Source: Lachnospiraceae bacterium (lineage in GTDB: Bacteria; Bacillota; Clostridia; Lachnospirales; Lachnospiraceae). Taken from it: a DNA stretch of 64,000 nucleotides. The translations under genes and the position numbers were made by a program. The notes below the pieces were generated by a model, which saw only the letters and a program-made list of their open reading frames with translations, made no database searches and was not told the origin of the DNA. Every line of letters starts with the position of its first letter. Within the stretch, counting starts at the first letter, position 1. The DNA lies in contig JAGAOO010000040.1 in assembly GCA_017623675.1 (NCBI GenBank), positions 43,216 through 107,215 of the forward strand. Direction: 5' to 3'. This document shows positions 2,703 through 64,000 of this stretch, piece by piece.

Positions 2703-4835
2703 TTATTCCTCCTTTGTTGCATCTTCACTGCTGTCTTGTGTATCTGTATTCGTATCTATCAGCGTCTCGCCTTCTACCGGTCCACCGGAACCTCCTTGGG
2801 ATTCCTCTGTGGCATCTCCCTCATTTCCTGACTCATCCTGAGGGGAACGATTTAAAAATGGCTGAAGACTGTTGGTCAAAGCCTTCCATTCAAAATTATC
2901 ACTAATTCCGGGTATCTGGCTTCCTGCATTATAAACCTCCAGAATGTCCGGTGCATCCCAGGAAGATACATCCGGATTCTTAGCCTTGTACTGATTATAC
3001 AAGAACCTCAAATGGCTGACATAAACGGCCTGACCGGAAGCTCCCATAAGACTTTCTGCTTCCTGATACATGGCAACTGCCTCATCCGTTTCACCCAACG
3101 CACTGTAGATTTCCGCCTTATCAATGAGTACATCTTCATATATGGTAGGATTCTCTTCCTTATCAATCTGTGAAAGTACGTTGTCACAACAGGTCAACGC
3201 TTCATAATAATACATCTCTGCATTCTGCTGTGTTTCATCTGCATTTGCCGCCAAACTTTGATAGGCGCTAATCAGATATAAATTATAGTAGTAATAGTAA
3301 TTAGAACTATTACTAATCGATGTGCCATTTTTATTCAAATCTGTAATGGCAGCCGTCAATACCCGTACTGCCGATTCATCTGCACCCTCGATATTCCCAA
3401 TATTTCTGGTATACACCATTCCCAGAATCTTATAATTCATAAATTTCGCTTCGCTGATTGCCATTCCTGCATTATTGGATTCGAATTCTGCCAAATCTGT
3501 AGCCAACTCCTGATAATTCGGATTTGGTTCTGACATAATCATTGCCATGGCAATATAATGCTGTGCATTTTCTCCATATTCATCCGATCTCTCATCAATC
3601 ATACGAAAATACTTCAAAGATGCATCGTAACTTTGCAAATCAAAATATGTAAGTCCCATCTGATATAACAAACGGTTATTTTTTGAAAGGTTCTTGCTGC
3701 TGTTGATGTAAGAAGCGATGGTTTCCAAACCTTTTTCCGGATCATTCAGATTATTTACATAAACATTCAGAATCTTAATGTACGCTTCTTCATTCTTTGG
3801 ACTCACCTGTATAGCATCCTGATATTCCAGAATCGCCTGCTCATAATTTCCTGCGTAACGGTAGTCGTCGCCAACGCTGATAATATTCATATAATTCTGG
3901 TTAATCAGATTGCGCTGTCCGGCAAATCCCATCAAAGATATACCGGTAAAAACCAATGTCATTGCGGCAGCTGCCACAAACATTCCAAATTTCTTTTTGG
4001 ACTGTTTCTTAAACTGCTCGTCCAACTCATCATAGTGGTCTAAGGCATATAACAATTCCGAACATGATTGATATCTGTCATTGGGATTCGGTTGGGTACA
4101 TTTCACCAGAATCTTTTCCAAACCACTGGACAATGCCGGATTCCATTGACGAATCGGCTTAATCTCATACGGAGGTTCACAAGGATTCATTCCTGTGACA
4201 ATATGATACAAAGTTGCTCCAAGACAGTAAATATCCGTTCTGGCATCTGTATTATAGATTCCTCGTCCCTGTGCATCACCGAACTGCTCCGGAGCCGCAT
4301 AACCTCTGGTTCCAAGAGCTGTCGTATCAGCATTATTTTCAATCTTATATTCTTTTGCAGTACCGAAGTCAATCAGCTTCACATTTCCATCCGGCTTCAA
4401 CATGACATTGGACGGCTTCATATCACGATAAATAATAGGCGGATCCATGGAATGAAGGTAATCCAAAGCACTACTTAATTGCTTTGCCCACTCAATCACC
4501 TTTTCCTGTGGTTGTGCCCCCTCTTCTTTCAAAATCTCACTAATTGGGCGACCTTCCACATAATCCATGACAACATAAACCTTGTTATCCTTTTGAATAA
4601 TGTCAACGATTCGAGGCAATACCGGATGGTCTACCTTTTTCAGAATATTTGCTTCTCTCTCTAAACCCTTCAAAAGAGTCTGGGTATCCTTGGAACCATC
4701 ATCCTTAATCTCTTTAATCGCCCACTGCTTATTCAGGCGTAAATCCATAGCCACATAAACTACAGACATACCGCCTCTGCCGATTTCCTTCAATATTTCG
4801 TATTTTCCGTCTAGTACTGTACCCTTATCTGTCAT
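2703..4835 (-). CDS. Transmembrane Ser/Thr protein kinase with extracytoplasmic TPRs
   Basis: A 710-residue PknB-type (Hanks) kinase. The kinase domain spans about residues 10-270: glycine loop GRGGMS (19-24), catalytic Lys41, YRD catalytic loop with Asp138 and K140/N143, DFG (156-158), GTRGYAAPE activation segment to 183. HRD is YRD here, which keeps the catalytic Asp. A single membrane helix follows at about 285-304. The outer part has TPR-like helices (for example AGNYEQAILEYQDAI) and an acidic Gly/Ser/Thr tail, instead of the PASTA repeats of PrkC/PknB, so it probably senses something other than muropeptides. The start has GGGAGAATAAA before the ATG. PP2C and FHA genes lie upstream in the same operon. 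Confidence 0.95.
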   Translation of the reverse strand: MTDKGTVLDGKYEILKEIGRGGMSVVYVAMDLRLNKQWAIKEIKDDGSKDTQTLLKGLEREANILKKVDHPVLPRIVDIIQKDNKVYVVMDYVEGRPISEILKEEGAQPQEKVIEWAKQLSSALDYLHSMDPPIIYRDMKPSNVMLKPDGNVKLIDFGTAKEYKIENNADTTALGTRGYAAPEQFGDAQGRGIYNTDARTDIYCLGATLYHIVTGMNPCEPPYEIKPIRQWNPALSSGLEKILVKCTQPNPNDRYQSCSELLYALDHYDELDEQFKKQSKKKFGMFVAAAAMTLVFTGISLMGFAGQRNLINQNYMNIISVGDDYRYAGNYEQAILEYQDAIQVSPKNEEAYIKILNVYVNNLNDPEKGLETIASYINSSKNLSKNNRLLYQMGLTYFDLQSYDASLKYFRMIDERSDEYGENAQHYIAMAMIMSEPNPNYQELATDLAEFESNNAGMAISEAKFMNYKILGMVYTRNIGNIEGADESAVRVLTAAITDLNKNGTSISNSSNYYYYYNLYLISAYQSLAANADETQQNAEMYYYEALTCCDNVLSQIDKEENPTIYEDVLIDKAEIYSALGETDEAVAMYQEAESLMGASGQAVYVSHLRFLYNQYKAKNPDVSSWDAPDILEVYNAGSQIPGISDNFEWKALTNSLQPFLNRSPQDESGNEGDATEESQGGSGGPVEGETLIDTNTDTQDSSEDATKEE

Positions 4836-4850
4836 TTTATTCTCCCTGAT

Positions 4851-5624
4851 TTAATATGATTTCAACAGAACCATGGAAATATTATCCTGCTCTTTTCTTT
4901 GCTTCACTAAATCTGTTAAATAAATACAATTCTGACGCATTACAGTTGGATTCACACATGCTTGCGGTCCCAACTGTTCTAGCATCTCCTGCTTGCTGAT
5001 TTCATGGCAGAAACCATCCGAGCAGATTAAATATGCGGTGTTTGGTGCAGCAGTGCCCTGATAAAATGCAGGTTCTACTACTGGTGATGCTCCTATACAT
5101 TGTAACAGAATACTTCTTCTTGGATCACGCAACGCTTCCTCCGGTGTCAAACGTCCCAATGCCACCTCTCTGGCAACAACAGACTGATCCTCTGTCATTT
5201 GCCGTACTTCTGAATCCGTCAATTCATAGATGCGGCTGTCTCCTACATGTATAATCAAATACTGATTTTGATATAATAACAACGCTGACAAGGTAGTACC
5301 CAATCCTGCATTATTCTGAATTCCATACTTTCCAAGCTTTGTATTTTCCTCCAAAGCCAATGCTTTCCAGTCATTAATTACCGTATTAGAATCAAATGCT
5401 CCGGTAGCTGCCATGGTAGCAAATGTAGTATCAAACCAATTACAAAATGCATGTATTACCTCTTTACTTGCCAATTCACCTTCTGACAATCCACCCATCC
5501 CATCACATACAATAGCAAATACTGCCCTTCCTTTTGGTGTATCAAGCATTTTAATTGCAATGGAATCCTGATTGGTGTGTTTTCTCAAACCCACATCCGT
5601 ATTATATGCTACAAAATAGTTCAT
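4851..5624 (-). CDS. PP2C-family Ser/Thr protein phosphatase
   Basis: A 257-residue PPM/PP2C phosphatase of the PrpC/Stp type. Metal-binding motifs are visible: NQDS (18-21), DGMGG (41-45), GDSRIY (128-133), TEDQS (144-148), SDGF (202-205) and a C-terminal QDN. No membrane segment, so it is cytosolic. It lies 15 bp upstream of the membrane kinase gene and presumably reverses that kinase's phosphorylation; adjacent prpC/prkC pairs are common in Firmicutes. The start has AAAGGAGAGAGCAA before the ATG. Confidence 0.95.
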   Translation of the reverse strand: MNYFVAYNTDVGLRKHTNQDSIAIKMLDTPKGRAVFAIVCDGMGGLSEGELASKEVIHAFCNWFDTTFATMAATGAFDSNTVINDWKALALEENTKLGKYGIQNNAGLGTTLSALLLYQNQYLIIHVGDSRIYELTDSEVRQMTEDQSVVAREVALGRLTPEEALRDPRRSILLQCIGASPVVEPAFYQGTAAPNTAYLICSDGFCHEISKQEMLEQLGPQACVNPTVMRQNCIYLTDLVKQRKEQDNISMVLLKSY

Positions 5625-53959: not shown

Positions 53960-55597
53960 TCAGTTATAACCTTTCACACTCCTAAACGCTGCCACCAAAT
54001 CCTTGCTTCCGTCAAACACACGGGCATTGGTAAGTTCAGCTAATTCCTCTAACTGCTCCGGTTCAGCAGAGCCGAACATAATGGAAAAGATTGGAATATC
54101 CTTTCCCAATTCTTTATACTGCTGTATAAATTCCTCCTTATGTCCGGTTTCTGAAGCACCATCTGTCATAAGGATAATTGCCGGAGTATAATCTTCTAAG
54201 TTAGAAATTTGAGAAATTTGCCACAGAGCCTCCTCTGCCGCAATATACATATCCGTACCGCCTCCGGGTTCCTCCGCAGCCACCACCTGATATAATTCTT
54301 CCAACTTTTCGGCATTATTGCCCTCACACATATAAGTGCTGATCACCTCATCATCGAAGGCTATAATGATGTTAATTTCCTCCTGTTCTGCCTGTAGCAG
54401 ATTCTGTTCCGCATTTTCCTGAAGCAGCACCTGAGCCATGGCTTCTACCAATTGTGCGTTGCCTTCTCCCTGCATACTTCCGGAATAATCCAGACAGTAC
54501 ATATTTAACGATGGCTTCCGGAAACTGGTCTGATATAAATTCAGGGCTTTCATCAACACCGGCTCCGAAGGCATGGAAATCGGAGATAACACTTTATCCA
54601 CGTTAATGCCCCATTCCGAAGGAAAGTACACCTTGTTTTCTTCTGCCACTCCTTCAAATCCGGTTCTCCGTCCGGTCTTTTGAATCTCATTTTGGACTTC
54701 CTCTGACAACAGATATTCCTGTATCTGTAAGAATGCCTCCTGTTTCTTGGCATCACCATGATCCACATAACCAAGAGGCGAGTCGGCAATGCTTAAACCG
54801 TCATATGGGTATACCACATACAGTGGTTCTTTTCCCTGTTCCACCAAGGTATTATTGGCATCAATAATCAAACATTCATAATTCACCATGGCATCAAAAT
54901 CCCCAGCCAGAAACATTTCCTTTAGCCAGTCGGAGCTGCCGGAGCTTCGGTCGATTCCGGATAACAGACCGGTTATCTTCTCTTTTAATTCCGGGTCATC
55001 CAAGTCAGCTTCGGTCAATCCCTCGCTCTTACCAAGCAAGGCATATAAGAATCCAATATAAGCGCTGGCACCGGAATTAGATTGAGTAGCACTTGTCATA
55101 CAGAACGAAAGCTTTCCACTTTCAATGGCTGTCAGAATGTCACTCACCGAAACATCTTTTCCTACGAAGCCCAATTTCTCTGCCAGGGACTGCTTAATTC
55201 CGAATACCACCGGAGTGGTGGAAATGGATTCATCATATTTGATTAAATGATTGGTATCTCCCAAGGAAAGCCATAGTCCCGACGCCGGCCAGACTGCATC
55301 ATAGTCTGCGGCACCGGACTGCAATTCAGTCATAATATCAACCGAACCTTTATACGTCATTTCAATGGTTACACCGGTTTCCTTTGCACACTGTTCCAGT
55401 ATTTCTCCAAGCTCCTTATTCTCAGAACCGGAAAGAATTCGAATGGTTTCTCCTCCCCCGGAACCCTGATAGATTCCGTCAATAGGGGTGGTGCCTCCCG
55501 ATTCCTGTCCCAATTCCATGCTGCAGCCACTCAAAATACTAAGCAACATCAGGACAACTATGAGTAAGCAGCCCCACTTTTTTATGATTTGTTTCAT
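53960..55597 (-). CDS. Lipoprotein with binding-protein domain fused to VWA domain
   Basis: 545 residues. Lipoprotein signal: basic start, hydrophobic run, LSGC with Cys25. Residues ~48-330 are a periplasmic-binding fold (VWPASGLWLSLG; TQSNSGASAY at 171-180; WGINVDKVL). Residues ~365-545 are a von Willebrand factor A domain with MIDAS CLDYSGSM (Asp370-Ser374), later EEPGGGTDMYIA and ILMTDGASETG. VWA-plus-binding-protein fusions are known in Firmicutes but not characterised. The operon context (XpaC, TelA, a second binding protein) suggests a cell-surface module with a cytosolic TelA partner. Confidence 0.85.
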   Translation of the reverse strand: MKQIIKKWGCLLIVVLMLLSILSGCSMELGQESGGTTPIDGIYQGSGGGETIRILSGSENKELGEILEQCAKETGVTIEMTYKGSVDIMTELQSGAADYDAVWPASGLWLSLGDTNHLIKYDESISTTPVVFGIKQSLAEKLGFVGKDVSVSDILTAIESGKLSFCMTSATQSNSGASAYIGFLYALLGKSEGLTEADLDDPELKEKITGLLSGIDRSSGSSDWLKEMFLAGDFDAMVNYECLIIDANNTLVEQGKEPLYVVYPYDGLSIADSPLGYVDHGDAKKQEAFLQIQEYLLSEEVQNEIQKTGRRTGFEGVAEENKVYFPSEWGINVDKVLSPISMPSEPVLMKALNLYQTSFRKPSLNMYCLDYSGSMQGEGNAQLVEAMAQVLLQENAEQNLLQAEQEEINIIIAFDDEVISTYMCEGNNAEKLEELYQVVAAEEPGGGTDMYIAAEEALWQISQISNLEDYTPAIILMTDGASETGHKEEFIQQYKELGKDIPIFSIMFGSAEPEQLEELAELTNARVFDGSKDLVAAFRSVKGYN

Positions 55598-55634
55598 GTT
55601 CCATACACCTCCGTATTACAGAATTCATACCTTT

Positions 55635-56546
55635 CTATAAAATCTTCTTCTTTTTAAAGATGATGATACACACAACAATTACAACCAAACTTAACACAAC
55701 CACTCCCGGATATCCCCGTTCTAACTCCGGCATATTGTGAAAGTTCATTCCATACCAGCCGGTTATCAAGGTCAAGGGAAAGAATATTGTGGAAATCACA
55801 GTTAAGAACTGCATGTTTTTATTCTGTTCCGCATCTACCTGTGCCTGATACGCATCCCGTACCTGCTGTGCATATGCCAGCAGATGATTGGTTTTCCCCA
55901 TCAGCCGGTCTGCCCGGTCCGCAATAATTCCAAAATATTTGACCTGTTTTTTAGAAAAGAAATGGCTTTCGTTTTCTTCCATTTCTTTTCCCATATCCAT
56001 TAGCTGGTCGTAATAACCATTTAACGTTAACAGCTCTTTTCGTATGGGCATAATTTCCGTCTGAAAGCCTTGTGTATTCCCATCCAACACCCGTTCTTCT
56101 AATGCCATAAGCTGTCTTTCATATTGTCCCAGCATCTCCAAATCCTTGCTGATAATCTGACTGATGAAATGATATATAAACTGTTCCTTTGTCATTTTCT
56201 GTCCCTGCTTCCTGTTTTGGATTCGCCGGACAATTCTCCTTGCATAATCATCATTTTCTACTATTACAATGTGTCGCTCATTGATAAAAAATAATATCCT
56301 GTGATGTGCCTCCTGCATCCGTATCAGCTTTGGAATATATAGGGAACCTGCCAAACATTCCTGTTGGGATTCCAGCTTACAAAATCCGATTTCGGACAGA
56401 CTGATTTCTCCTTCATATATCATTCCTGCCAGTTTCATTGCTTCCGGTGCCTGCTTGGCATCGGTCAAGAATAATGCAGATTGTCCTTCCTCCGGCTCAG
56501 TTGTTTCCATTTCCTTTAGGGCTTCTCCCAATGCCATGACAATCAT
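55635..56546 (-). CDS. corA: CorA-family divalent metal transporter
   Basis: 303 residues. Cytosolic N-domain, long coiled stalk (about 165-245) and two C-terminal helices with the GMN signature (YGMNFHNMPEL), the Mg2+ selectivity motif. The first helix is after FLTVISTIFFPLTLITGWYG. The N-domain is shorter and less standard than in CorA of E. coli. It overlaps ppk1 by 4 bp, so translational coupling of a Mg2+ transporter and a Mg2+-polyphosphate enzyme is notable. Confidence 0.9.
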   Translation of the reverse strand: MIVMALGEALKEMETTEPEEGQSALFLTDAKQAPEAMKLAGMIYEGEISLSEIGFCKLESQQECLAGSLYIPKLIRMQEAHHRILFFINERHIVIVENDDYARRIVRRIQNRKQGQKMTKEQFIYHFISQIISKDLEMLGQYERQLMALEERVLDGNTQGFQTEIMPIRKELLTLNGYYDQLMDMGKEMEENESHFFSKKQVKYFGIIADRADRLMGKTNHLLAYAQQVRDAYQAQVDAEQNKNMQFLTVISTIFFPLTLITGWYGMNFHNMPELERGYPGVVVLSLVVIVVCIIIFKKKKIL

Positions 56547-58600
56547 GAATGCTTCTCCTGTAAATATGCCTGTGCATAAAAATTCTCCTGTGAATTCAAA
56601 GGTGCATCCTCTGCATGTATCCGAATATAGGAACCGTCCGGCTGCATAAGTCTTGCCTGCTGGTTATCATAGAGCATAGTCTGGAACATTTCCTTCACTC
56701 GTTTTTGCAACCGCTCATCATAGATTGGAGCCGCCACCTCAACCCGGTGAATGGTGTTACGGGTCATGAAATCCGCAGATGCAATGTATATCTTTTCCCG
56801 TTCTTCTGTGCCGAATATATAGATCCGGGAATGTTCTAAAAATCGTCCTACAATACTAATCACCCGGATATTCTCTGTCATTCCCTCAACACCCGGAATC
56901 AGACAGCAAATTCCCCGGACAATCAGGTCAATTTTTACACCGGCTTTCGATGCAGCAATCAATCGGTCAATAATCTTCTTATCCGTCAGGGAATTAATCT
57001 TCACTCCGATATAGGTTGCTTCTCCCAACTGGGCATGACGAATTTCCTCCTCAATCATTTCCAGCACTTTGTTTTGCAGACACTTTGGAGCAACCAGCAA
57101 GTCATGGGTTTCTTCTACCGTTTCTCCCTTTGCCAATGCCTGAAATACCATAGCAGCTTCCTGTCCGATTCTCTGATTATGGGTCATCAATGACAAATCC
57201 GTATACAGACGTGAGGTTTTCTCATTATAATTACCGGTACCAATCTGGGTATAGTACTCTGCCTGACCTTCTTCATTCTTCCGGATAATCAGGCACATTT
57301 TGGAATGTACCTTGTATCCATCCAATCCGTAAATCACCTGACAGCCTGCTGCTTCTAACCGTCTTGACCATTCGATATTATTCTCTTCATCAAACCGTGC
57401 CTTTAACTCTACCAGCACCAGTACATCTTTTCCGTTTTCCGCAGCTTCAATTAATGCTTCCACCACCTTGCTCTGCCTTGCCACCCGGTAAAGGGTCATC
57501 TTAATAGCGATTACAGATTCATCATTTGCCGCCTCCCGCAGCATTTCCAAAAATGGCTTCATACTGTCATAAGGATAGGACAATAGCTTATCCTGTTCCT
57601 TAATCTGTGGCAAAATTGGCATATCACTTTCAAATTGCGGAGATTTTTGCGGAATCCGCTTTTCATAAAACAGCTCCGGCACCCGTCTTAGGATATCCTG
57701 AATCTGGAACAGGAAAGACATCTCAAGAGGAGTATCATTCCGAAATACATATTCGCTTTTCACCCCTAAATACTGACACAGGGTATCAATAATCTCACCG
57801 TCCAAATCTCTGGACAGCTCCAACCGAACAGGGGACAACCGCTTCCGCTTCTTAATCAGTGCCGCCATAAATTCCCGGTAATCCAAGTCCTCGTCATTCA
57901 TGGAATCCGTATCAATATCTGCATTTCTGGTTACACGAATCAAGGATTTTGCTTTCACATGATACCCCTTGAATACCTTTGGCATAAAGTGCAGCAGTAA
58001 TTCTTCTGACAGCATATAGGTTCCTTCTTCGTAAGGCACAGCAATCAGGCGCGGAAACACACTGGAGGTACAAGGAATAATTCCCAGCTTTTCCTTTCCA
58101 CTTTTCCCTTCCAGTACAGCGACTGCATAGATTTCCCGATTTTTTAAAAATGGAAATGGCTGTTTTTTACCTACCATGGTAGGTGCCAGCAAAGGTGCGA
58201 TTTCCTCATCGTAATAGGCTTCTAATTCTTCACTTTTTTTCTTGTCTATTTTATGAAAATCTACTAATCGAATCCCATGTGTCTCCAACTGTTCCATCAA
58301 CTGTTCATAGACAGCATCTTTCCTGTGATTCAGCACATTTACCTGCTTCAGAATAGCCGCCACCTGTTCCTTCGGGGTCATATTGGACTTGTTATCCTTA
58401 ACGTTAGGTGATAACAACATCTGGTCTACCAAAGACCCTACCCGAACCATAAAAAATTCATCTAAATTACTTTGATAGATAGAAATAAATGATAGTCTTT
58501 CACAAAGCGGAACCGTCTCGCTCTCCGCCTCTTCCAGTACCCGTTCATTGAATTTCAACCAGGATAATTCCCGGTTCATATATATTTTCGTATCTGCCAT
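56543..58600 (-). CDS. ppk1: Polyphosphate kinase 1
   Basis: 685 residues, full-length Ppk1. ELSWLKFNERVLEEA at the N-terminus, LNHRKDAVYEQLMEQLETHG, and catalytic phospholipase-D-like half with KVHSKMCLIIR (first phospho-His) and TQIGTGNYNEKTSRLYTDLSLM, later IDLIVRGICCLIPGVEGM. It makes polyphosphate from ATP. AAAGGAG precedes the ATG. First gene of the ppk1-corA-VWA-xpaC-PBP-telA run. Confidence 0.95.
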   Translation of the reverse strand: MADTKIYMNRELSWLKFNERVLEEAESETVPLCERLSFISIYQSNLDEFFMVRVGSLVDQMLLSPNVKDNKSNMTPKEQVAAILKQVNVLNHRKDAVYEQLMEQLETHGIRLVDFHKIDKKKSEELEAYYDEEIAPLLAPTMVGKKQPFPFLKNREIYAVAVLEGKSGKEKLGIIPCTSSVFPRLIAVPYEEGTYMLSEELLLHFMPKVFKGYHVKAKSLIRVTRNADIDTDSMNDEDLDYREFMAALIKKRKRLSPVRLELSRDLDGEIIDTLCQYLGVKSEYVFRNDTPLEMSFLFQIQDILRRVPELFYEKRIPQKSPQFESDMPILPQIKEQDKLLSYPYDSMKPFLEMLREAANDESVIAIKMTLYRVARQSKVVEALIEAAENGKDVLVLVELKARFDEENNIEWSRRLEAAGCQVIYGLDGYKVHSKMCLIIRKNEEGQAEYYTQIGTGNYNEKTSRLYTDLSLMTHNQRIGQEAAMVFQALAKGETVEETHDLLVAPKCLQNKVLEMIEEEIRHAQLGEATYIGVKINSLTDKKIIDRLIAASKAGVKIDLIVRGICCLIPGVEGMTENIRVISIVGRFLEHSRIYIFGTEEREKIYIASADFMTRNTIHRVEVAAPIYDERLQKRVKEMFQTMLYDNQQARLMQPDGSYIRIHAEDAPLNSQENFYAQAYLQEKHS

Positions 58601-58704
58601 AATCCTTTTCTCTCCTTTGTTTAGCTTTGGTCTTTCAGTTTAATACCTTGATGTAAAATCAATAAGTTTCTTATGTGAATTCTGTGTAAAATTAGTCTGT
58701 CAAG

Positions 58705-58734
58705 TTGCTTAACAGGAATGGTCTGTGATATACT
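58705..58734 (+). promoter_or_regulatory. Putative sigma-A promoter of the HD gene
   Basis: TTGCTT (58705-58710), 18-bp spacer, TATACT (58729-58734), about 50 bp before the HD gene start. Confidence 0.5.
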
Positions 58735-58783
58735 GAAGCATACTTATTTTTGAAAATGTAAATCCAATGGGAACAGGAGTAAT

Positions 58784-59443
58784 ATGAAAATAACATTTGA
58801 TGATATTCAAAAAAACGAAGCCATTCGTACTTATATTCAAAAGGCTGACGAATCACTGATTGCATTAGGTTATACGGAGCATAGCTTCACCCATGTTATG
58901 AGAGTTGCCAAGCTGGCAAGTGAAATTCTCTTAACCCTTGGGTATTCTGAACGGGAAGCAGAGCTGGCACAGATTGCCGGCTATCTCCATGACATCGGCA
59001 ATGTCATTAATCGGGTGGATCATGCCCAGTCCGGTGCTGTTATGGCATTCCGTATTCTGGATAAAATGGGAGCAGACCCGGAGGACATTGCTACCATCAT
59101 CACCGCCATTGGCAATCATGATGAAGCAACTGCCTATCCGGTCAATCCAATTGCCGCCGCTTTAATTCTGGGTGACAAAACAGATGTCCGCTATACCAGA
59201 GTCCGCAATCAGGACTTTGCAAGCTTCGACATTCATGACAGGGTGAATTATTCTGTACGGGAAAGTCAGGTGAAAGTTGTAAAAGATTCTCATATTGAGC
59301 TGGATTTGAAAATAGACACCAACATCTGTGCAGTTATGGATTATTTTGAAATCTTCCTGAACCGAATGATTCTTTGTCGAAAAGCGGCCGAGAAATTAGG
59401 TGTGGAATTCTGGCTGTATATCAATGGACAGCGATTGATTTAA
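58784..59443 (+). CDS. HD-domain phosphohydrolase
   Basis: 219 residues. HD motif: HSFTHVMRVAKLASEILL (first His), AGYLHDIGNVINRVDHAQSG with the HD pair near 70, then IITAIGNHDEAT and LILGDKTDVRYTRVR with the last Asp. It probably hydrolyses a nucleotide or cyclic nucleotide; substrate unknown. The 3' end is duplicated in part 1.3 kb downstream, beyond the Abi gene. Confidence 0.9.
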   Translation: MKITFDDIQKNEAIRTYIQKADESLIALGYTEHSFTHVMRVAKLASEILLTLGYSEREAELAQIAGYLHDIGNVINRVDHAQSGAVMAFRILDKMGADPEDIATIITAIGNHDEATAYPVNPIAAALILGDKTDVRYTRVRNQDFASFDIHDRVNYSVRESQVKVVKDSHIELDLKIDTNICAVMDYFEIFLNRMILCRKAAEKLGVEFWLYINGQRLI

Positions 59444-59512
59444 TATCATCTGTTACTCATTGTCCCAACATAAATATACGTATATCCCATCTGCATTTCA
59501 ATTACATTCTTC

Positions 59513-59541
59513 TTGTTTCGAACATTTGTTTTTGTTATAAT
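59513..59541 (+). promoter_or_regulatory. Strong sigma-A promoter of the Abi transcript
   Basis: TTGTTT (59513-59518), exactly 17 bp, perfect TATAAT (59536-59541). The start would be near 59548, giving a leader of about 150 nt before the Abi start codon. Confidence 0.75.
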
Positions 59542-59612
59542 CATTTAATGAGTTGCATATCATATTATCACTACCAAAAAGCATTTGACATTCTGTCCAG
59601 AATGACTTATAC

Positions 59613-59680
59613 TTTCCGTAGTGAATGAGTTACGGAAACTTGAGAAGCCCGTAACCCGGGCGGCTCCTGCGGGGGCCGTC
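59613..59680 (+). ncRNA. GC-rich structured RNA in the Abi leader
   Basis: Three hairpins in 68 nt: TTTCCGTA/TACGGAAA (59613-59620/59631-59638, 10-nt loop); GCCCG/CGGGC (59647-59651/59657-59661); CGGCTCC/GGGGCCG with one G-U (59661-59667/59672-59678), then TCTTGTTATTTAT. Hairpins 2 and 3 share C59661, and longer pairing of 59659-59660 with 59679-59680 would compete with hairpin 2. The block is far more GC-rich than its surroundings. It may be a small regulatory RNA, an attenuator or an RNA antitoxin for the adjoining HEPN protein. Confidence 0.6.
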
Positions 59681-59700
59681 TTGTTATTTATGGAGGTTTT

Positions 59701-60630
59701 ATGGCTAATAATTTACAAAAGAAACCATTTTTAGATTATCAGGCTCAAATTAAATATTTAAAACAAAAGCAGTTAGTTATTCCTGATGATGCTTCTGCAA
59801 TATCGTCACTTGAAAAAATCAGTTACTATGCTCTTGTTAATGGATATAAGGATATTTTCAAGAATCCGGTTACAAACAATTTTTATCCCGGTACAACCTT
59901 TGATGATATCTATAATTTATATCTGTTTGATGCCGAATTAAGAGAGGTTTTCTTGAAGTATATATTAATTTTTGAGAAGCATGTAAAATCATCCATTTCT
60001 TATCACTTTAGTAATACATATGGCAACGGCATTGCTTTTTATCAGGATATCAACAATTACGACTATGGTAATAACATATCAGACGTGCAATACCTTTTCC
60101 GCAAGATGAATAGTAAGATTAATGGTCGTCATCCATCCCCACAGGTCGCACATTATATAAACACTTATCAAGATGTACCTTTGTGGGTTCTTACAACAGA
60201 CCTAACTATTGGTGAAACCGCCAGTATGTATAGATATTTAAAAGGACATTGTAAAACCCTTGTGTGCGACGACTTCCATCATATTGGTAGAAATGAACTT
60301 GGAAAAATGCTGGTTATCCTTACTAAATATCGCAATATTTGTGCCCATGGCAATCGTTTATTCAACGCCAAAACCCAGGATTCCATTCCCGACCTCATTG
60401 CTCACAAAAAATTGCATATTCCAAAAGTAAATTCAAGGTATCAGTATGGAAAATCTGATTTATTCGCAACAGTAATTTCGTTAAAATATTTGCTTGATGC
60501 TGCAGACTTCCGACTGTTTTATTATGAATTAAAGAAGATTTTCAAAAAGTATAATCCTTCCGATAAAACCTTAGAATTAATGGGATTTCCGTCTAATTGG
60601 ATGTCCATATTACGAATCAAAGTATATTAA
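59701..60630 (+). CDS. Abi-family (Abi_2/AbiD-AbiF-like) HEPN protein
   Basis: 309 residues. The N-terminus KPFLDYQAQIKYLKQKQLVI and SYYALVNGYKDIFKN, FEKHVKSSISYHFSNTYG (91-108) and the HEPN RNase motif R-x4-H in KYRNICAHGNRLFN (Arg211, His216) are the pattern of Abi_2 abortive-infection proteins. Such proteins are expected to cleave RNA on phage infection and stop growth. GGAGG stands before the ATG. Base composition is AT-rich compared with the neighbours, and it is flanked by copies of the HD gene end, which points to a recent insertion. Confidence 0.85.
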   Translation: MANNLQKKPFLDYQAQIKYLKQKQLVIPDDASAISSLEKISYYALVNGYKDIFKNPVTNNFYPGTTFDDIYNLYLFDAELREVFLKYILIFEKHVKSSISYHFSNTYGNGIAFYQDINNYDYGNNISDVQYLFRKMNSKINGRHPSPQVAHYINTYQDVPLWVLTTDLTIGETASMYRYLKGHCKTLVCDDFHHIGRNELGKMLVILTKYRNICAHGNRLFNAKTQDSIPDLIAHKKLHIPKVNSRYQYGKSDLFATVISLKYLLDAADFRLFYYELKKIFKKYNPSDKTLELMGFPSNWMSILRIKVY

Positions 60631-60691
60631 AAACGGTACTATCCACAATTCTTATCCTGTCACCTCCTCCCTTTACCCTGTCACCTATCTC

Positions 60692-60759
60692 TCCGGTCAA
60701 TCCAATTGCCACCGCTTTAATTCTGGATTATATCAACGGGCAACGATTGATTTAATATC
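60692..60759 (+). pseudogene. Remnant copy of the HD gene 3' end
   Basis: Bases 60692-60725 match 59137-59170 inside the HD gene with one change; 60729-60759 match 59417-59447 (the HD gene end and following bases) with three changes. The two pieces are joined in frame with a ~240-bp internal deletion and encode PVNPIATALIL and YINGQRLI-stop. The differences at the end are silent, so it once was a coding copy. Confidence 0.85.
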
Positions 60760-60768
60760 TTACATCTT

Positions 60769-61203
60769 TTATAGGAATTTCTGCATGTCCTTTTCTAAGT
60801 CCTCTTCCAGCTTTATTAATTTCTTTGCAATATCCTTTGACTGCTCATCTGCTGCCTTATATTGATTCAAATACTGATTCAAGGTTTTTACCCCCATATT
60901 GCAACCATCTGTCATCAACTCAGCAATTGTAGCATCCGAAGTATCAAAGGTTAGCTTTACTTTGGTTTTCATCCATGACATACCCTTGGCAATAAGGGTA
61001 GGTTCTTTTCCATCATCATGATATCTTCCCAAAAGATTCTGCAGCTTCGCTTTCAGTTCTTCATGCTTGTCCTTGCATTGGCTCAAAGCATCCTTCAGTT
61101 CTGTATTCTGCACATATGGCAGTACCTCATCAATGGATTCTACTCCCATGCTAACACCTGCATCACATTCCCGGAGCAGGCGAATGGTATCCGGTTCAAT
61201 CAT
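60769..61203 (-). CDS. Small ferritin-like helical hypothetical protein
   Basis: 144 residues, all helical. Two repeated halves start with DAGVSMGVESIDEVLPYVQN and DGCNMGVKTLNQYLNQYKAA, with a four-helix-bundle pattern like the DUF2383/ferritin-like group. AAGGAGGTCATAAA precedes the ATG. No metal-site residues are certain. Function unknown. Confidence 0.7.
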   Translation of the reverse strand: MIEPDTIRLLRECDAGVSMGVESIDEVLPYVQNTELKDALSQCKDKHEELKAKLQNLLGRYHDDGKEPTLIAKGMSWMKTKVKLTFDTSDATIAELMTDGCNMGVKTLNQYLNQYKAADEQSKDIAKKLIKLEEDLEKDMQKFL

Positions 61204-61371
61204 TTTATGACCTCCTTATAATGGAATATAAGGATAGTATTGCCGGATTTCCTTTTTTTATTAGTGTGTCTTCTTTTTTGAATCAATCCGCTCTATAGAA
61301 CATTCTTCCGATGTGGAACCAAAGTAGAAACTAATCAGTCTTTGATACATTGAATATCCGGCATAAAAAAT

Positions 61372-61411
61372 GAGCTTTTATATCAAAGATTATCCTCTGA
61401 TATAAAAGCTC
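61372..61411 (-). terminator. Strong terminator of the large flagellin gene
   Basis: A perfect 14-bp stem (61372-61385/61398-61411) with a 12-nt loop, followed on the minus strand by ATTTTTTATG. It lies about 60 bp after the flagellin stop. Confidence 0.9.
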
Positions 61412-61469
61412 TCACTTAGCCTTCTATTTCTATATTGATTCATAATTTCTATTTCAGTTCTGTCTCATT

Positions 61470-63002
61470 TTATCCCTGCTGTAACAGCTGTAACAGGCTT
61501 TCCGGATGTGCGTTTGCCTTCGCCAGCATATTAGTTGCCGTCTGCGTCAACAGATTCTGCTGGGTATAATTGGTCATCTCTGCTGCCATGTCACAATCCA
61601 GAATTCTGGAAAGGGAATTGGTCATACTTTCTTCCGATACACCTAAGTTATTTTCCGTATGCTCTAACCGATTCTGATAGGCTCCCAGCTTCGCACGAAC
61701 ATCGGACACCTTCTTAATTGCTTCGTCAATTTTTTCAATAGCTGCCGATGCATCCTGTTCACAAACCAGATTAATATCATCCAGTCCCAAGGTTCTCGGA
61801 GACACTTCCGGAATCGTAATCGTCATGGTTTCTTCCTGGTTCGCACCAATCTGGAATACCATCTGTCCTGCACTTAATACTTCTACCTTGGCATCAAATT
61901 CCTGACTGTTACTGGTCTGTGCACTACCTCCTCCGCTACCCATGGTCGGGTCACTGAACTTGGTTCCGCATGCACCCTGCTTTGCTTCCATTACCATCTT
62001 AAAACCACTGCTATCCGTTACGGTAATGGTATTGCCATCACAGACAGCCGTTGCTGTCGGTGAAAAACCGTCTCCCAGTTCCACCTTCACATCAGTTCCA
62101 TTGGAAATGCTGTCCTGAATTCCCAACAGATTCGCCAAGTCATCATTACTGCAGGAAACCTCAATCTTCTCACCGGAACCATAGTAGTCAGAAACTATCA
62201 CAAGCTGACCGCCATTTCCAAATCCATTGGCGCTTGGTGTGTAGCCTGCATTCTCTTCCAAACCTGCTGAAGTATCCAGACTGTCAACAGTAAATATCTT
62301 ATTTCCTGTCCAGTCACATAATTCCTGTAATTTCGTGAATACCTGATCTGCAGTTTCTCCTTCCTTGATTTCCACAGATTCTCCATTAATTGTAATGGTT
62401 CCTGCCTGCTGGGCAGTTATGGTATCTCCTGCTGCCATGTTCACAGTACCACCAACAGAAACCGCCTGTCTGGCATCCTGTGAAATCTTCAATGAGTATT
62501 CATCCAGATTAACAGCGTCTGATATTTCTATTGTTGAAACACCCTTTACCACATTTCCCGTATCAATATAGCTGGCACGACCGATATCACCATTTAACAG
62601 TTTTTTCTGGTTAAACTGCGTGCTGTCTGAGATTCTTTGAATCTCCTGATTCATAACTTCAATCTCATCCTGAAGGGTCTGCCGGTCTTCTGCACAATTC
62701 ACATCATTTGCCGCCTTTACAGCCAATTCCTTCATGCGCTGTAACATAGAATGTACCTCTGTCAAAGCACCTTCTGCTGTCTCAATAACCGAAATTCCGT
62801 CACCTGCGTTTCGGTTTGCCTGCTGCAAACCACGAATCTGTGTCCTCATTTTCTGTGAAATTGCCAAGCCTGCCGAATCATCCTTTGCATAATTAATCCG
62901 GTATCCGGAGGATAATCGCTCAATGGCTGTTGCCATGGAATTGTGATTCTTGTTCAATGTATTGTTGGCAATCATTGCCGTAATATTATGATTAATCCGC
63001 AT
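61470..63002 (-). CDS. Flagellin, large (510 residues)
   Basis: 510 residues from the ATG at 63002 (AAGGGG eight bases upstream; an in-frame GTG nine bases earlier is not needed). D0/D1 N-terminus MRINHNITAMIANNTLNKNH and SGYRINYAKDDSAGLAISQK, C-terminal D1/D0 AKLGAYQNRLEHTENNLGVS to LLQLLQQG. The variable middle (about 150-400) is beta-rich and contains Gly/Ser-rich GSGGGSAQTSNSQ. It differs strongly from the 263-residue Hag. It is unlinked to the flagellar operons but has its own sigma-28 promoter, CsrA-like site and terminator, so it is expressed as a second filament protein. Confidence 0.96.
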   Translation of the reverse strand: MRINHNITAMIANNTLNKNHNSMATAIERLSSGYRINYAKDDSAGLAISQKMRTQIRGLQQANRNAGDGISVIETAEGALTEVHSMLQRMKELAVKAANDVNCAEDRQTLQDEIEVMNQEIQRISDSTQFNQKKLLNGDIGRASYIDTGNVVKGVSTIEISDAVNLDEYSLKISQDARQAVSVGGTVNMAAGDTITAQQAGTITINGESVEIKEGETADQVFTKLQELCDWTGNKIFTVDSLDTSAGLEENAGYTPSANGFGNGGQLVIVSDYYGSGEKIEVSCSNDDLANLLGIQDSISNGTDVKVELGDGFSPTATAVCDGNTITVTDSSGFKMVMEAKQGACGTKFSDPTMGSGGGSAQTSNSQEFDAKVEVLSAGQMVFQIGANQEETMTITIPEVSPRTLGLDDINLVCEQDASAAIEKIDEAIKKVSDVRAKLGAYQNRLEHTENNLGVSEESMTNSLSRILDCDMAAEMTNYTQQNLLTQTATNMLAKANAHPESLLQLLQQG

Positions 63003-63084
63003 TTTCTGCACCCCTTTTCATTTCAGAGGTTCTTCATAAGCTATCATCCTTGATTCGTTATTCCGAAACTCATTTTTCCTTCTG
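63003..63084 (-). promoter_or_regulatory. Leader of the large flagellin with CsrA-like site
   Basis: The leader holds AUCA-AGGA-UGAU (63043-63054 on the minus strand), a 4-bp hairpin with AGGA in the loop inside CAAGGATG, which matches the core of the CsrA consensus CARGGAUG. Unlike hag, the ribosome site AAGGGG has no GGA. Confidence 0.6.
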
Positions 63085-63090
63085 AATAAA

Positions 63091-63118
63091 TTATCGGAGG
63101 GGCTTCTCAAAATCTTTA
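63091..63118 (-). promoter_or_regulatory. Sigma-28 promoter of the large flagellin gene
   Basis: Minus-strand TAAA (63115-63118), 16-bp spacer, TCCGATAA (63091-63098). The TAA of TAAA is the stop codon of the hemolysin III gene upstream, so promoter and gene end overlap. Confidence 0.75.
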
Positions 63119-63778
63119 GACCAAATATAAATACACCATCATAAAATGGCAGAAGCTGCCACCCATACAAAACAGGTGAAAGATTTCATGAGTGCCGAAT
63201 TTCTTATGCTTTTCATTGAATTTTTTCCCTTTGAGTGCATAAATCACACCACCAATCGTGTAGATAATGCCACCGGTTAGCAGCCAGGCAAAAGCACCCA
63301 TTCCTAAATTCCGAATCAGAAGTGGTGCCGCAATAATACACAGCCAGCCCATTACAATATACATAACCGAGGAAACCCACTTCGGGCAGGTCACCCAAAG
63401 CATCTTGAAGGTGATTCCCAAGGCTGCCACACTCCAGATAGTAGTCAGCATCAGATAACCAATCCGGTCTCCCAGACCAATGACGCAAACCGGCGTATAG
63501 GTACCGGCAATTAAAACGAATATCATGGCATGATCCAGTTTCTTCAACACCTTATTGGCTTTTGCCGAAATATCAAATGTATGATAAGAAGTGCTGGCTC
63601 CATACAGCAGAATCATGCTGGTAATAAAAATGACAACCGCAAGAATATGACTTCTTCCGAATCCTTCCTTTGCTTTTATTATGAGTGGAGCTGCGGCAGC
63701 AGCCGCCATAAGCATACCGATAAGATGCGTAATAGCACTTCCCGGCTCTTTGATTTTACGAGTTTTAACAGTTTCCAC
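63116..63778 (-). CDS. Hemolysin III family (PAQR-like) membrane protein
   Basis: 220 residues. GTG start at 63778 with AGGAGG eight bases before it; an ATG two bases upstream is out of frame. Seven hydrophobic helices; PAQR/HlyIII motifs EPGSAITHLIGMLMAAAA, GASTSYHTFDISAKANKVLKKLDHAMIF and C-terminal HEIFHLFCMGGSFCHFMMVY with the conserved His residues. Its role in the membrane is not established. Confidence 0.92.
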   Translation of the reverse strand: METVKTRKIKEPGSAITHLIGMLMAAAAAAPLIIKAKEGFGRSHILAVVIFITSMILLYGASTSYHTFDISAKANKVLKKLDHAMIFVLIAGTYTPVCVIGLGDRIGYLMLTTIWSVAALGITFKMLWVTCPKWVSSVMYIVMGWLCIIAAPLLIRNLGMGAFAWLLTGGIIYTIGGVIYALKGKKFNEKHKKFGTHEIFHLFCMGGSFCHFMMVYLYLV

Positions 63779-63860
63779 ATAAAAGACCTCCTTTATAATA
63801 AAATGAAAATTATTTTCTTGTTATAATGCTCACACCTAAGTATAATGAACGCATAAGCAT

Positions 63861-64000
63861 GAGTGCGGTTTCAAAAGGCAAGCACTGACTGCTTGCAGGC
63901 GAGTGATTGACTTTGAAACCATATGAGTGCAACGAACACCGAAAACCGAAGGTTTGAGGTGGCACTCATGCGTTTTCTCCTTGTTGAGTGCGGTTTCAAA
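63861..64000. repeat. 125-bp tandem intergenic repeat with nested hairpins, cut by window edge
   Basis: GAGTGCGGTTTCAAA occurs at 63861-63875 and again at 63986-64000, so the unit is 125 bp. Inside one unit: GGTTTCAAA/TTTGAAACC (63867-63875/63912-63920) enclosing GCAAGCA/TGCTTGC (63878-63884/63890-63896), then ATGAGTGC/GCACTCAT (63923-63930/63962-63969) enclosing AACC/GGTT. The ATGAGTGC word recurs throughout. More units probably lie to the right. Confidence 0.7.
63871..63969 (-). CDS. Small ORF inside the 125-bp repeat
   Basis: 32 codons (starts MSATSNLRFSVFVAL, ends SVLAF), with AAGGAG seven bases before its ATG at 63969. Repeats of this type in Lachnospiraceae often carry such predicted small ORFs; I recall similar hypothetical annotations but cannot verify. 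It may be a by-product of the repeat palindromes and not a gene. Confidence 0.25.
   Translation of the reverse strand: MSATSNLRFSVFVALIWFQSQSLACKQSVLAF

Follow-up and report, generated by a model that had tools for sequence, protein, structure and literature searches.

The abiF gene at 59701-60630 of the window (the whole 64,000-nucleotide stretch of DNA that was analysed) and the structured RNA encoded directly upstream of it very probably form a compact toxin–antitoxin, and probable phage-defence, unit of the AbiF type, in which the RNA would keep a HEPN RNase inactive. That the RNA might be the antitoxin of the HEPN Abi protein was the central idea of a preliminary description of this locus, and it is well supported by covariation in the RNA, by the correspondence of RNA class with AbiF clade, and by the RCd22–AbiF pair (PMC12373285). 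The long, signal-sensing leader envisaged in the same description did not stand. All features of the window described below lie on the plus strand.

The predicted 309-aa product of 59701-60630, a gene from the ORF list preceded by a GGAGG ribosome binding site (59692-59696), is an AbiD/AbiF-type HEPN protein, and Pfam, PADLOC and a structure match bear out the earlier assignment of an Abi_2 protein with an R-x4-H RNase motif. The Abi_2 domain passed the curated score with 148.6 bits (cut-off 25.6, E 3.3e-43), and PADLOC assigned the protein to AbiD (E 1.4e-64). The HEPN motif RNICAH (R211-NICA-H216, encoded at 60331-60348) aligned with RNSCCH of PDB chain 8vz6_A, where the catalytic residues are in that solved relative. 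The 8vz6 entry, PbAbiF with its RNA AbiFr (PMC12737573, PMC12373285), was the sole solved-structure match of the window protein; the homology, which was assessed for the proteins alone, spans residues 7-302 and is remote (E 4.7e-13). The locus had also been described as a GC-rich block, which is true of the RNA (59% G+C at 59620-59685, compared with 40% in the window) but not of the gene (33%).

The AbiF gene and its RNA are an insertion. The cassette (59518-60631) was the sole match of positions 55001-64000 to a copy in another genome (L003; 83.8% identity), whose sequence extends 135 nt past its gene. In a genome of the same genus (G001) the cassette is absent, and only 55 nt separate the HD-domain gene from the gene after it. 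The corresponding host gene in the window (58784-59443; Pfam HD, E 1e-10) forms the left border of the cassette, and two diverged fragments of this HD gene, identified downstream of the cassette by sequence comparison (60689-60759), mark the insertion scar.

The RNA (59620-59685) is more likely a separate transcript of ~66 nt, with its own promoter, a covarying hairpin and a terminator hairpin, than the ~150-nt leader described previously. Its start is predicted, and its extent is based on a 17-sequence alignment, on covariation and on the match of a covariance model (R1). This main promoter, TTGACA-N17-TATACT (59585-59613), agrees with the consensus at 11/12 positions and is followed by AGTGA, hairpin 1 (59629-59655; a 7-bp stem GTTACGG/CCGTAAC with a conserved 13-nt loop), the intrinsic-terminator-like hairpin 2 with its T-rich tail (59658-59690), GGAGG and ATG. 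A TTGACA-like site was seen by eye at the same place in 16 of the 17 aligned leaders, the second copy in L008 being without it, and a promoter score of at least 9/12 was reached by 47/49 RNAs that precede an AbiF gene. Since promoter-like sites in the region are no rarer than by chance (8 found, 7.7 expected), the weight of this evidence is in the conserved position. Similarly, the terminator scan gave a single hit, 59658-59681, where 0.9 were expected, so that it is conservation across homologues that argues for a terminator. The fold of 59547-59700 had an energy of -47.1 kcal/mol (z -2.86; 1 of 200 shuffles as good), and that of the ~66-nt RNA had an energy of -27.7 (22 of 1000 as good).

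The promoter proposed initially, TTGTTT (59513-59518) and TATAAT (59536-59541) separated by 17 nt, is there, and its TATAAT is present in L003 too, but only the -10 is perfect. Its -35 has 3/6 consensus bases, the site does not look conserved, and it is probably a minor one in comparison with the better site at 59585-59613. Whereas three adjacent hairpins had been placed at 59613-59680, two hairpins are conserved. The swap of pairing between hairpins does not look conserved: it would require bases that precede the predicted start, L003 could form it in part, and by eye the other leaders lack it. A sensing leader with swapping hairpins was rejected on these grounds. The repeated word AATGAGTT does occur at both 59547 and 59624, but its first copy is lost in L003 (91% identical), and thus the repeat was discarded as a signal.

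The preliminary description had proposed that the leaders of Abi_2 homologues be aligned and examined for covariation, and this gave a strong signal. A protein search found matches in 43/195 related genomes, and the leaders of the nearer homologues have a common plan: a TTGAC-like -35, 17 nt, a TATAAT-like -10, AGTGA, hairpins 1 and 2, a ribosome binding site and the gene. In 17 aligned leaders, 92.4% of cells were paired, versus 79.4% in shuffles, and 13 pairs had double changes, versus 7.8 in shuffles; in neither case was any of 500 shuffles as high. Every cell of hairpin 1 was paired in the 17 sequences, with double changes at 5/7 pairs, and the 9-pair helix of hairpin 2 had double changes at 8 pairs. 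Sliding of the pairing partners abolished the signal, and RNAalifold recovered both hairpins independently.

The model R1 was built from these 17 leaders and re-finds them by construction; the window RNA is one of them (59614-59690, 82.3 bits). No family in the Rfam copy that was searched matches the window RNA at gathering scores. Structured RNAs upstream of AbiF-like genes, which the preliminary description mentioned, do exist as family RF03085, but this family has no match up to E 10 in 59200-60900, even though its model finds the phiC2 RNA, barely above the threshold (37.6 vs 37 bits). Membership of the window RNA in RF03085 was therefore rejected. We read the window RNA as the representative of an RNA class, named class A here, that would be outside the Rfam families searched, whereas AbiF with an RNA is a kind of unit already known. 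The class A model detects such units where Rfam gives none. RF03085 RNAs, like class A, are short hairpin RNAs found before AbiF genes and also alone in phages, but the layout of stem, loop and bulge differs between the two.

The closest parallel is RCd22–AbiFCd of C. difficile prophage phi027 and phage phiC2 (PMC12373285). As in the window, an Abi_2 HEPN protein with R-x4-H is preceded there by an RNA gene with its own promoter, a terminator and a covarying hairpin motif; the difference is that RCd22 has two RF03085 motifs and a terminator, while in the window RNA a single hairpin, which belongs to another class, is combined with a terminator hairpin. The gene order of type III toxin–antitoxin systems such as ToxIN, AbiQ and CptIN, namely an RNA antitoxin gene, a terminator and a toxin gene (same source), is also that of the window, where a structured RNA gene with its own promoter is upstream of the toxin gene on the same strand and the hairpin 59658-59681 is in the place of the terminator. 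Contrary to type III systems, the toxin is a HEPN protein and not of the ToxN fold, and the tandem repeats usual in these systems are lacking: the window RNA contains one copy of its motif, and two were found in L008. In our reading, the locus is a unit of toxin and RNA antitoxin that resembles type III systems, where neutralization of the toxin by the RNA is proposed by analogy with RCd22, which acts in cis and in trans by protein binding (PMC12373285).

In such a unit, the RNA's own promoter would yield the ~66-nt two-hairpin RNA, mostly ending at hairpin 2, and read-through past this hairpin would provide the abiF mRNA. The RNA would bind the AbiF HEPN RNase and hold it inactive, as in the tested relatives, and phage infection might upset the balance and free the RNase. 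Action of the RNA in trans, which would be possible as well, fits the solitary copies described below and a genome, G337, in which the RNA gene is downstream of the toxin gene. In favor of the toxin–antitoxin reading, 49 of the 89 RNA copies found stand directly before an AbiF gene and 5 before a fragment of one; against it are the 35 copies without an AbiF gene directly after, the single copy of the RNA motif, the remoteness of the protein from PbAbiF and the weak support of the class A branch (59/91) in the tree of AbiF proteins.

The class of the RNA goes with the clade of its AbiF protein. In most of the other Abi_2 leaders inspected, the space from a promoter-like site to the gene holds different short hairpins, many of which have an RF03085-like layout. 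When the class A label (47 rows) is mapped on a tree of 99 AbiF proteins, it requires 1 change, compared with 33.1 in shuffles; classes D and E require 1 change each, C requires 2 and B requires 7, where classes B-E were assigned by loose patterns made for this analysis and 9 rows remained unclassified. As AbiF-like proteins have been proposed as ancestors of the CRISPR nuclease Cas13 (PMC12165695, PMC12737573), the diversity of the antitoxin RNAs that go with them is relevant to the origin of guide RNAs.

Class A RNA is often found apart from the toxin. R1 matched 42/195 genomes at E <=0.01 (54 matches, of which 34 were above 37 bits; 17 of these 34 are the training set), and in an order-wide sample it matched 40/392 genomes at E <=1e-5 (52 matches), with Abi_2 in 94/392. 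The 89 copies described above are distributed over 86 loci, including 10 viral ones; L096, L101 and L102 have the same scores as L010 and L072, and the genes they carry are near-identical. Among the 49 paired copies, L066 stands before a gene that is interrupted by an internal stop. The 35 orphans include L123, which is at a contig end, L082 and L083, which precede short broken abi remnants by eye, and second copies near an abi gene in L003, L032, L105 and L116.

That the toxin-free copies are generally chance-kept remnants of decayed cassettes is possible rather than probable. Copies before fragments (5/89) and before the broken remnants of L082 and L083 are what such decay would leave, and a promoter score of at least 9/12 was obtained for 16/35 orphans, in comparison with 47/49 paired and 5/5 fragment-paired copies. 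The low promoter scores suggest that part of the orphans are decayed, with the sequence of loss that one would expect of an antitoxin RNA, and for part of the chromosomal orphans the remnant reading likely holds. However, in an alignment of 27 orphan copies alone, the same stem 1 was paired in 187/189 cells, and at a single pair as many as 17 sequences had double changes. The stems are also maintained in the phage copies described below, and the exact placement of some of these in tRNA clusters is recurrent. The arrangement in G337 (L116) again fits an RNA antitoxin acting in trans: its AbiF is near the class A proteins and has no R1 match upstream, while ~40 nt downstream there is an RNA gene that has an altered loop and a promoter-like site of its own.

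Orphan copies adjoin zeta-like, PBECR4 and DUF3990 genes. In six zeta cassettes (L055, L080, L094, L112, L113 and L117), class A RNA is located ~29 nt before a 59-aa ORF and a Zeta-toxin-like gene, and in all of them except L055 it is preceded by a class D AbiF-type leader, which places two antitoxin-like RNAs in tandem. A general partnership of class A RNA with other toxins was considered and rejected: the outermost pair is broken in 3/6 of the zeta cassettes, and the loop is changed in L117. This damage, which also accords with decay, leads us to read the zeta-cassette RNAs as passengers or as parts of antitoxin arrays. In L045 and L071, an orphan class A RNA is beside another double-hairpin RNA (stem, loop AGACCNNAAAC), which in L045 precedes a PBECR4 nuclease gene. 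Two of the loci with second copies (L032, 1317-1393; L105, 4760-4836) share a promoter-poor RNA unit of ~150 nt: in a faecal phage record this unit follows abiF, and in the chromosome of G458, whose abiF is nearly identical to that of the phage, it stands elsewhere. Downstream of an AbiF relative in L004 there is a THF riboswitch (RF01831, 2698-2836, 67.7 bits).

Pattern scans of virus contigs found class A RNA at 16 loci, all matching R1; 6 copies precede an AbiF gene and 10 do not. One further pattern scan for the RNA gave no match. Abi_2 was detected in 0/10 whole records of the toxin-free viral copies, and in 2/2 paired controls. Five of the ten toxin-free copies, representing two sequence types, are within a tRNA cluster, between tRNA-Met and tRNA-Arg. 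In L170, for instance, tRNA-Met ends at 4091, the RNA begins at 4092 with AGTGATC, and the first base of tRNA-Arg is 4161. The two types differ in the fourth pair of stem 1, A-U versus G-C, and hairpin 2 is retained while the T-tract is absent. The genes near the RNA in L168 include members of the PhoH and tRNA-His guanylyltransferase families, and in L103 holin and endolysin genes precede the orphan. Blast of class A RNA against named phages returned one record, already known through its AbiF protein, and Blast of a tRNA-cluster copy returned none. By eye, an orphan class A RNA is near RelE-like, Phd-like and tape-measure genes in the phage-like contigs L099 and L100.

RF03085 RNAs, too, are found in phages that lack AbiF. 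Cyanophage S-CREM1 has been reported to carry an abiF RNA that is probably functional during infection (PMC9964418), a statement repeated in a review (PMC12197685). We located this RNA between tRNA-Asn and tRNA-Gly, and found no Abi_2 in the S-CREM1 genome up to E 1. Blast from S-CREM1 gave 13 records, of which we examined six further phages (two cyanophages, two T7-like Aeromonas phages, Mycobacterium phage Redno2 and Salicola phage CGphi29), leaving out Aeromonas H76 and H77 and four duplicate entries. All seven phages passed the RF03085 gathering score (47.5-55.7 vs 37 bits), and Abi_2 was found in 0/6 of the further phages (0/7 with S-CREM1). In the two cyanophages, the RNA is 3 to 5 nt before a tRNA. 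In the Aeromonas phages it lies between connector and scaffold genes (L175, 704-740; L178, 695-731), and one stem pair differs by a double change; the stretch before this RNA we take to be a T7-promoter-like motif.

One exact RF03085-type pattern occurred in at least 120 stretches of virus contigs and at least 120 of bacterial genomes. Among the matches listed, an AbiF ORF was present within 500 nt downstream at 79/123 bacterial versus 1/120 viral sites, and, where there was at least 700 nt of room, at 65/101 versus 1/109. For the first 80 entries of each set, AbiF follows at 52/81 bacterial versus 0/80 viral sites (64 and 49 distinct contexts), with a Fisher p of ~2e-21 for sets that differ in taxa and a calculation that ignores relatedness. 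Abi_2 was found in 0/80 whole virus records, many of them fragments, for the first 80 of at least 120 matches. A tRNA was within 100 nt at 57/120 viral versus 0/123 bacterial sites, and 56 of these 57 viral RNAs were no more than 12 nt upstream of a tRNA on the same strand (among the matches listed). In the 36 distinct viral sequences among the matches listed, the four free pair positions pair in 36, 35, 24 and 36; the weakest, 6-31, is the one that pairs in 24/36, and another pair is broken in 1/36. Among 2000 shuffles, none was as high for three of these positions and 47 were for the remaining one. In 31 distinct bacterial sequences among the matches listed, the same positions pair in 30, 27, 22 and 29.

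From these comparisons, phages of several unrelated kinds may well carry toxin-free AbiF antitoxin RNAs, often directly before or between tRNAs so that processing might release them, to disarm AbiF-family abortive infection. The disarming, like binding and silencing of the toxin, is proposed because RCd22 works in trans and because of the analogy to RNA anti-CRISPRs (Racrs; PMC10651486). Like Racrs, the phage copies would be solitary phage-borne RNA partners of a defence protein, but their putative target is AbiF and not Cas proteins. The protein partner was detected in none of the 10 class A records, none of the 7 named phages and none of the 80 virus records (the first 80 of at least 120). 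If true, phages would have a counter-defence against AbiF that consists of RNA and parallels the RNA anti-CRISPRs, with class A and RF03085 as two of its versions. The AbiF arms race would then be directly testable, and some unexplained RNAs of phage tRNA clusters would gain a reason. In the literature surveyed, whose scope did not extend to the original abiF-motif and AbiF–Cas13 structure papers, three papers name RF03085, and we found no description of class A RNA or of phage abiF RNAs as AbiF inhibitors.

It is unlikely that the phage copies do not act on AbiF and instead have a different role, for example in the processing of tRNA clusters or in the control of phage genes. Proximity to tRNAs at the 57/120 viral sites, nearly always just before one on the same strand, is what this would predict. 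The remaining 63/120 sites among the matches listed have no tRNA nearby, however, and the two Aeromonas phages have the RNA between structural genes, as noted above. Moreover, two different RNA classes are found in phage tRNA clusters, and the same pattern precedes AbiF at the 79/123 bacterial sites.

It is very improbable that the RNA is a cis attenuator only, i.e., that it does not bind the protein and that its hairpins respond to a signal by regulating transcription into abiF: a terminator-like hairpin is indeed directly 5' of the gene, and premature termination is also part of RCd22 action (PMC12373285), but the position of the RNA gene in G337, downstream of the toxin gene, the solitary copies with conserved stems, and the phage tRNA-cluster copies that keep hairpin 2 without a T-tract all stand against it. 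As a separate observation, in the tRNA clusters with class A RNA of L170 and L171, tRNA-Ala and tRNA-Asp are separated by a further unexplained gap, which measures 72-81 nt (3615-3686 and 5104-5184, respectively).
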